A DNA stretch of 38,637 bases, from contig SKJZ01000217.1 in NCBI GenBank assembly GCA_007121755.1, positions 1 to 38,637 of the forward strand, written 5' to 3'. The notes below the pieces were generated by a model, which was not told the DNA's origin, searched no databases, and was given only the letters and a program-made list of their open reading frames with translations. Source of the DNA: Halorhodospira sp. (GTDB lineage: Bacteria > Pseudomonadota > Gammaproteobacteria > Nitrococcales > Halorhodospiraceae). Made by a program: the position numbers and the translations under genes. Below, in pieces: positions 13,037 through 27,302 of this stretch (its first letter is position 1; the number at the start of each line of letters is the position of its first letter).

Positions 13037-13267
13037 GGACCGTGCGGATTCGGGCTGATCGGGAGGGGGTAGGGGTCCGGTTACGGGGGCGTCCGACGGC
13101 ATGGATGCCGTCGGTGACCGGTTTGCGGGGAGCAAACCGGGTCGCGCAAAGCGCGCCCAACGGGTGCGGACCAGGGATGGTCCGCAACAGCGTACAGGGA
13201 CGTATTCACAGCGTCCCCCGTAACCGGACCCCTACCCCCTCCCGATCAGCCCGAATCCGCACGGTCC
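13037..13267 (-). repeat. Foldback element copy 1: 53-bp perfect inverted-repeat arms around a conserved core with extra internal hairpins
   Basis: Arms 13037-13089 and 13215-13267 are exact reverse complements. Internal hairpins CGACGGCAT/ATGCCGTCG, CCGGTTTGC/GCAAACCGG, CGCGC/GCGCG, GCGGACCA/TGGTCCGC; core shared with 26532-26677. Strand given as the sense of the upstream gene folP. Confidence 0.9.
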
Positions 13268-26041: not shown

Positions 26042-26362
26042 TCAATTAATGCGGAGTTCTTCCAAATCCCGGCCGCTGGCCTCCCACTCCTTAACCCAAC
26101 TCGGTTTCCGTCCGCGGCCGGACCACCCTTGGTTGGCATCGCTGGGATGACGATACTTCATCGGCACCTTGCCACGCGCGGCGCCCTTGGCGCCGCCCGC
26201 GCTACCGACCAATTCAGTCAGGCTGAAGCCGTACTTTTCGGCCACGGCCTTCAATTCCCGCTGCGCCTCTTTGGCCTCATCGCGGCGCCGCCGTTTAATC
26301 TCCTTGTCAATCTGCCCTTTCAGTTCATCAAGCTCTTTTACAGAATACTTTGAAAGATCCAT
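26042..26362 (-). CDS. H-NS family histone-like DNA-binding protein
   Basis: C-terminal KYRHPSDANQGWSGRGRKPSWVKEWEASG; coiled-coil N-terminus. Confidence 0.92.
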   Translation of the reverse strand: MDLSKYSVKELDELKGQIDKEIKRRRRDEAKEAQRELKAVAEKYGFSLTELVGSAGGAKGAARGKVPMKYRHPSDANQGWSGRGRKPSWVKEWEASGRDLEELRIN

Positions 26363-26471: not shown

Positions 26472-26531
26472 GCGTTTAACAAAAAAAACCGATCGACAAC
26501 CGATATTGCCGACATTCCCTTTGCGGACCTT

Positions 26532-26677
26532 TTACTAGCGTTACGGAAAGTATTGCCGGAGGGAGATCTCTACGGGGGCGTCGGCGGCATGGATGCTGCC
26601 GTTGAGCGTACAGGGATGTATTTACAGCGTCCCCCGTAGAGATCTCCCTCCGGCAATACTTTCCGTAACGCTAGTAA
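26532..26677 (-). repeat. Foldback element copy 2: 47-bp perfect inverted-repeat arms around the conserved core
   Basis: Arms 26532-26578 and 26631-26677 are exact reverse complements; core GGGGGCGTCGGCGGCATGGATGCTGCCGTTGAGCGTACAGGGATGTATTTACAGCGTCCCCC. Strand given as the sense of the upstream gene pdxH. Confidence 0.92.
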
Positions 26678-26684
26678 TCACGCT

Positions 26685-27302
26685 TTATGGGTTCAATAGG
26701 GTGTGCGTCCACCCCGCGGGGGCGAACTCATAACGCTCCCGATCGTGGAGACGGCCGTCGCCAGCCTTCCATAGCTCCACACTATAAGGAATAATCCGAT
26801 AGCCGGACCAGTGGGCCGGCCGGGGGACTTCGTTGGGAAACGCCGCCTCAACCTCCGCCACGCGGGAGTCGAGTTGTTCACGCACCGCCAGGGGCTCCGA
26901 TTGGCGCGACGCCCAGCCACCGATCTGACTGAGTCGAGGACGTGACGCCCAGTAGCGGTCCGCTTCCCCGTCGCTCACCGGCGCCACGACGCCGCGAATC
27001 TCCACCTGCTCGCCCAACGGCTGCCAGAAAAAGCAGAGGGCCGCCCGCGGATTCTCCGCAAGCTGCCGCGCCTTCCGGCTCTGCCGATTGGTATAAAAAA
27101 CGGCGCCGCTCTCATCCAAACCTTTCAATAAAACAGTACGCGCCGATGGCCAACCGTCCGCTCCGGTGGTCGCCAACACCGCCGCCGCCGGCTCGATCAG
27201 ATCGGTCTTCCCCGCCCGCTCCAAGGCGTCCCACACGCGTTCCACGGCCTCGCGATAGACCCCGTCGGTAGGGGGAGTTGCCGCGTACTGATTACTCTCC
27301 AT
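26685..27302 (-). CDS. pdxH: Pyridoxamine 5'-phosphate oxidase
   Basis: [72 protein letters not shown]. Confidence 0.95.

Follow-up and report, generated by a model that had tools for sequence, protein, structure and literature searches.

The foldback element next to pdxH

The window, by which we mean the entire 38,637-nt stretch of Halorhodospira DNA analysed here, contains only two long perfect inverted repeats, copy 1 and copy 2; all others recovered by an inverted-repeat search reach 71–86% over 20–31 nt. Copy 2 lies between pdxH and a gene for an H-NS-type protein, and its arms are 100% complementary over 47 nt, with 52 nt between them. Because, copy 1 apart, no inverted repeat of the window exceeds 86% over 31 nt, a chance origin of copy 2 is excluded. 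The features of the locus, together with copy 1, are as follows:

26042–26362, minus strand: H-NS-type gene, 5' end facing the element (Pfam PF00816)
26532–26677, plus strand (the conserved, RNA-like strand): whole foldback element, copy 2 (inverted-repeat search; covariance-model match at 26565–26644)
26532–26578, plus strand: left arm (47 nt), fully complementary to the right arm (inverted-repeat search; comparison with the copy on contig C245)
26579–26630, plus strand: conserved 52-nt core, a three-way junction with two hairpins (alignment A2, pair counts)
26588–26595, plus strand: loop of hairpin 1, CATGGATG, i.e. C(ANGGAN)G, a CsrA/RsmE-type hexaloop (counts in A2 columns 29–37)
26608–26619, plus strand: hairpin 2, GTACAGGGATGT, GGA-to-GGA spacing 23 nt (A2; comparison with the SELEX consensus)
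26631–26677, plus strand: right arm, 47 nt (inverted-repeat search)
26685–27302, minus strand: pdxH, with PNPOx domains; its stop codon lies 7 nt away from the element (Pfam PF01243/PF10590)
13037–13267, plus strand: copy 1, same family, 53-nt arms and 125-nt core (inverted-repeat search; model matches at 13094–13113 and 13162–13217)

A first-pass annotation had described exact 47-nt arms around a core of about 52 nt with a sharp boundary, and the search bears this out, the bases directly outside the arms being unpaired. The same annotation took copy 2 for the compact, probably minimal version of the element; its 52-nt core is indeed the standard core class-wide, and copy 1 is the same core with inserts. 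The claim that differences between the small hairpins of the two copies keep pairing is also right: GGCGGCAT/ATGCTGCC retains all pairs, one of them G.U; that of copy 1 pairs perfectly. The family covariance model matches copy 2 on the plus strand with 95.1 bits (E 1e-16). The 80-nt centre of copy 2 folds 6.5 SD better than shuffled sequences, with a folding energy of -45.7 kcal/mol for the plus strand versus -38.3 kcal/mol for the minus strand.

In copy 1, two extra GGA-loop hairpins sit between core hairpins 1 and 2, and loops of the C-G-closed hexaloop type CANGGANG are found at 13100–13107, 13172–13179 and 13195–13202. Related inserts occur in two further copies of the host genome. The hairpin insert of copy 1 (ACCGGTTTGCGGGGAGCAAACCGGGTCGCGC...) is related to inserts in a foldback with a different core (L305) and in L345 and L346, which suggests that one hairpin module can be nested in another. 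Four such different-core foldbacks were observed in the host genome (L303:9018-9282, L304:3679-3919, L305:2447-2641 and L306:3561-3698, on contigs C69, C150, C82 and C14). Their outer arms are close relatives of the copy 2 arms (TTACTAAC.TTACGGAAAGTATTGCCGG); their core, GCCGGGC...GCCCGGC, spans 52, 101 or 153 nt with nested hairpins and is unlike that of copy 2. Arms and cores look interchangeable.

The position of copy 2, 7 nt after the pdxH stop codon, the mostly intergenic location of the family and the very stable long hairpin would suit a bidirectional terminator or a 3'-end mRNA stabiliser like the REP/BIME or ERIC-type hairpins. However, no U-tract follows the arms, the one terminator-like site (26492–26513) lies outside the element, and copy 2 has neither a promoter nor a terminator of its own. 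Copies elsewhere are mainly intergenic, and their orientation and arrangement relative to neighbouring genes are near random, as judged with a simple codon-usage gene caller that could miss small biases. A terminator or stabiliser would also leave the invariant CANGGANG loops and the strand bias described below unexplained, and we regard this function as improbable. The link to the pdxH 3' end that the first-pass annotation implied is weak as well. The GGA strand of copy 2 is antisense to pdxH, as it is to the H-NS-type gene, so a role of copy 2 within the pdxH mRNA itself is improbable. Moreover, the region downstream of pdxH in a genome of the same genus (G001) aligns on both sides (78% identity) without the element, and copies therefore come and go. 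At the orthologous site, this genome carries a CGTCATTGCGAG-type palindrome (L356, about 660–760), which we take to be of the CGTC type; the site downstream of pdxH seems to attract repeats.

Conserved structure and private arms

The structure of the family was assessed in alignment A2, which comprises 70 copies from more than 50 genomes. In A2, which was fitted to the covariance model R1 and hence favours the structure, the pairs of the outer stem, hairpins 1 and 2 and the junction are formed in 96.1% of cells, and pairing falls to 34–42% when the 3' partners are slid by 1–3 columns. Double-sided changes are present in 26 of the 30 pairs, with a covariation score of 0.81 versus about 0.1. An independent MAFFT alignment (A1) yields double changes in 19 of 27 pairs. 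The high fraction of formed pairs, its collapse upon sliding and the number of double changes show that the structure is real. Structural conservation, at which the two copies of the window had hinted, is thereby supported; lack of covariation had been named as an observation that would refute it, and the pairs do covary. The core also contains conserved junction bases (AGC ... GCGT).

Mismatches in the arms point to the strand under selection. Counted on the plus strand, G.U exceeds A.C by 19:0 in G038, a single-contig genome of the same order, by 87:15 in a mixed set, by 13:4 in G006, a second such genome, and by 39:17 in A2; the host genome is the exception, with no G.U bias (8:12). The excess of G.U on the plus strand indicates that this strand is selected as a single strand, either as RNA or as ssDNA.

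The arms themselves are mostly private to each copy. Host arms are 97.6% identical within a copy versus 40.5% between copies. The description of the copy 2 arms as unrelated does not hold throughout, as its closest relative, located on contig C245, shares 85% identity with copy 2 along the full element and thus also in the arms. The arms of these two copies differ by eight substitutions and one indel, all of which are mirrored so that both copies are perfectly paired, and their cores differ at 4 of 52 positions. Among moderately similar copies, 59–77% of the differing arm positions are mirrored. Compensatory selection accounts for the arm substitutions; the mirrored indel and the missing G.U bias in the host fit arm-to-arm copying better. 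The arms may thus be kept complementary, at least in part, by template switching at the hairpin during replication, one arm being copied from the other. Mirrored substitutions and a mirrored indel in private, perfect arms would then constitute a natural record of such copying in hairpins.

Arm length is typical of the lineage, at about 24 nt in Chromatiaceae, 29 in G038, 45 in G006 and 43–56 in the host. An origin of the arms as an inverted target duplication was rejected on the grounds of this lineage-typical length, of the target duplications in G006, which lie outside the arms, and of the arms shared with the C245 copy. An arm length of exactly 55, found in four copies, was considered as an assembly k-mer effect; the others range from 42 to 57, and the same design occurs in single-contig genomes.

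Distribution and mobility of the family

A BLAST search with copy 2 identified about 30 further core copies in its own 2.2-Mb MAG. Model R1, built from 24 copies, matches 81 times in this MAG (about 80 copies). For two single-contig genomes of the same order, G006, which belongs to the same family as the host, and G038, it gives at least 86 matches each. Within the order, 29 of 54 genomes have R1 matches; for Gammaproteobacteria as a whole, 37 of 232 sampled genomes do, with a patchy distribution and often at high copy number. The existence of a foldback family, proposed from two copies, is thus confirmed within the host and across the class. Named genera in which an exact core pattern occurs are Allochromatium, Thiocapsa, Thiorhodococcus, Halochromatium, Ectothiorhodospira, Stenotrophomonas, Arenimonas, Aliidiomarina and Methylocucumis, among others; no element was found in the E. 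coli genomes searched.

The perfect arms of copy 2, and the fact that several copies sit at MAG contig ends, could point to an assembly artefact or to a one-off inverted duplication at this locus. The same structure at dozens of loci, its many copies in two single-contig genomes and the class-wide covariation leave this explanation with a negligible probability, and the artefact that the first-pass annotation had kept in view does not apply to the family. Many host contigs (C273, C215, C212, C99, C228, C144 and others) end inside or just outside a copy, and for this reason the element probably breaks short-read assemblies.

The host core retrieved nothing useful from databases of plasmids and phages. 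A shorter core variant matches one passenger segment on Enterobacteriaceae plasmids. Part of the core, from this element or a related one, lies near IS26 on conjugative plasmids of Citrobacter and Klebsiella from sewage (L341, L342), where it adjoins a gene for an iron-containing alcohol dehydrogenase. Two IMG/VR viral contigs (L375, L376) match the model at 30 and 59 bits, so that the element also rides on phages or prophages.

Evidence for transposition comes from the complete genome G006, in which 5-nt direct repeats are located at the expected ends of 21 of 40 copies, compared with a mean of 3.3 and a maximum of 12 in 500 shuffles. One copy of this genome (L253) is nested in the hairpin-2 region of another and is flanked by the duplication TGGAG. 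In neither the host genome (2 of 18 copies; null 0.65, null maximum 5) nor G038 (3 of 27; null 3.8) do target duplications reach significance. The element is short and non-coding, has inverted repeats and reaches a high copy number, as is characteristic of MITEs, and behaves like a miniature, non-autonomous transposon. Its copies may have spread by means of a transposase supplied in trans. A DDE_Tnp_1 partner was sought at seven PF01609 loci of G006, none of whose transposases carries the ends of the element.

The element could instead be REP-like DNA. Its hairpins would then be recognised as ssDNA by a Y1/RAYT-type transposase, the loops would be transposase contacts, and RNA would play no role. 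Recognition as ssDNA would go with the same strand bias, and head-to-head pairs of copies 80–230 nt apart recall REP dimers (PMC3733652). However, mobilisation by RAYT/Y1 was rejected as the presence of Y1 does not correlate with copy number: 45 copies occur in G042 without any Y1 gene, and G034 has six Y1 genes and no copies. The RAYT of the host resides among unrelated repeats, without a closely flanking copy of the element, and there is no conserved GTAG tag in A2, the GTAG in the copy 2 arm not being common to other copies. The target duplications of 5 bp in G006 also speak against this reading, as they are not expected of Y1 transposition. On balance, we consider it rather unlikely.

The RAYT-like Y1 transposase of the host (176 aa; L298:5055-5585, G000:C277) lies among GTTGGGCC-type palindromes that are unrelated to the element. 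Divergent, head-to-head pairs of copies about 80–230 nt apart were observed in unrelated genera (L279, L280, L284, L288, L289 and L292 in G038; L069, L130, L317 and L332); the opposite pair arrangements are rarer.

GGA hexaloops, CsrA and known systems

Both small hairpins of the core are C-G-closed hexaloops CANGGANG, in which the two N positions are free and the remaining positions nearly invariant. For C A N G G A N G, the counts in A2 are 70, 65, N, 69, 69, 70, N and 70 of 70 in hairpin 1 and 69, 69, N, 69, 70, 69, N and 70 of 70 in hairpin 2; 60 of the 70 copies have the exact motif in both loops. Each N position takes all four bases, hence there is no GNRA requirement. The distance from GGA to GGA is 22–25 nt, and 23 nt in 51 of 70 copies.

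The high-affinity site of CsrA/RsmE is a hexaloop ANGGAX on a stem, and all four RsmZ stem-loops in the same study are closed by C-G (PMC4005645). The corresponding pair in the element is C 70/70 and G 70/70 in hairpin 1 and C 69/70 and G 70/70 in hairpin 2, with GGA at 69–70/70. Hairpin 2 of copy 2, GTACAGGGATGT, fits the CsrA SELEX consensus RUACARGGAUGU letter for letter, and the GGA spacing falls within the 10–63 nt that one CsrA dimer can bridge (PMC7652899). Most SELEX hairpins had short stems, and CsrA may bind less readily to very stable structures (PMC7652899). CsrA is encoded in 50 of the 54 genomes of the order, including the host, whose canonical CsrA (G000:C81:7026-7181) closely matches the solved CsrA proteins 1y00 and 2bti and is nearly identical to E. 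coli-type CsrA over the first 55 residues. Two genomes with copies, G033 and G046, lack a CsrA match in the order-wide search, possibly due to gaps. The agreement of the paired loops with the published high-affinity CsrA/RsmA site strongly suggests that they bind CsrA.

Mobility with 5-bp duplications in a relative, class-wide distribution and twin CsrA-type GGA loops extend the first-pass annotation. The reading that we favour, and hold to be probably correct, is that of a class-wide, non-autonomous mobile hairpin whose plus strand is selected, most likely as RNA, and carries twin GGA hexaloops that would accommodate one CsrA dimer, with CsrA suggested as the ligand by loop sequence and spacing. 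The long outer stem and the three-way junction would present the two hexaloop hairpins at the distance suited to a single dimer, and transcribed copies would bind CsrA and act as scattered decoys or as CsrA sites attached to mRNAs. Since orientation is near random, many copies, copy 2 included, would display the GGA loops only on antisense or read-through RNA. A more far-reaching version, which we advance tentatively and with some doubt, is a selfish or domesticated mobile RNA element that has carried twin high-affinity CsrA sites to dozens of loci in each genome throughout Gammaproteobacteria, forms a distributed CsrA decoy or a CsrA-dependent regulatory layer and has its arms re-copied from one another at the DNA level, which would keep every stem private and yet perfect.

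Binding of CsrA to the loops would mean that, apart from the CsrB/RsmZ genes, tens of CsrA sites have gone unrecognised in many Gammaproteobacteria. Current views of the pool of free CsrA and of its regulon would then change, and a global regulator would be linked to a mobile element. RNAs pulled down with RsmA, RsmE and RsmI of P. putida include intergenic sequences flanking ISPpu8 and a "long palindromic region", which were left unexplained (PMC7937890); the element may explain them. No description of such an element was found in the literature on CsrA with MITEs or palindromic repeats, and a literature text search for the core sequence returned only an unrelated paper.

Within Rfam, no family reaches its threshold with the host copies or 20 further loci; matches to miRNAs (mir-337, MIR8670 and others) fall below gathering and were dismissed as chance hits of long perfect stems. 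The nearest relative is Ysr224 (RF02770, Yersinia sRNA 224), which is reported to rank among the most prevalent bacterial sRNA families (PMC9029176). Its reverse complement shares the core, with two CANGGANG hairpins and the junction GAGCC + GGCGTC; the local score between its reverse-complement consensus and the core is 84, with a shuffled maximum of 37, and the Rfam match has an E value of 5e-5. The gathering score of 70 bits is not attained by the best host copy (37.1) or by any of 20 other loci. The Ysr224 model represents the opposite strand, and the family is classed as an sRNA rather than a mobile hairpin bearing twin CsrA sites.

This annotated sRNA with the same core, together with the several GGA hairpins in one RNA that are especially evident in copy 1, might suggest that the copies are independent decoy sRNA genes of the CsrB/RsmZ type instead of a mobile element. 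About 80 copies in one genome, the nesting and 5-bp target duplications, the absence of a dedicated promoter and terminator at copy 2 and of any Rfam match to CsrB or RsmX/Y/Z make this very unlikely. The mobile hairpin does resemble CsrB/CsrC and RsmX/Y/Z in its GGA hexaloops (ANGGAX), in the C-G-closed stems, in the presence of several per molecule and in the dimer spacing (PMC4005645, PMC7652899); these systems, however, are few dedicated sRNA genes, whereas the element is dispersed, 100–250 nt long, present in many copies and provided with long arms.

TwoAYGGAY RNAs of gamma-Proteobacteria and Clostridiales have, by name, two AYGGAY-loop hairpins (Weinberg et al., 2010; PMC2864571). In contrast, the second loop position of the element is N, most often G, and with an E cut-off of 1 the TwoAYGGAY covariance model matched none of 13 loci.

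GTAG and CGTC REPs (Di Nocera et al., 2013; PMC3733652) are likewise dispersed, mainly intergenic palindromes that occur in head-to-head pairs. They are single hairpins of 20–40 bp with a tag and, for GTAG, a RAYT, whereas the element comprises three stems and GGA loops without a RAYT link. A CGTC REP is defined by its CGTC tag and an 8–9 bp stem starting with A-T pairs, at 20–40 bp in total (PMC3733652); hairpin 1 of the element departs from this definition, as it starts with C-G/G-C and is part of a three-way junction. MITEs such as NEMIS/Correia, ERIC, RUP and Nezha share with the element the short, non-coding sequence, long inverted repeats, target duplications, intergenic location and high copy number. 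Unlike in MITEs, selection in the element acts on an internal RNA-like structure that is strand-specific and has fixed loops, and the arms vary from copy to copy but match each other within any one copy.
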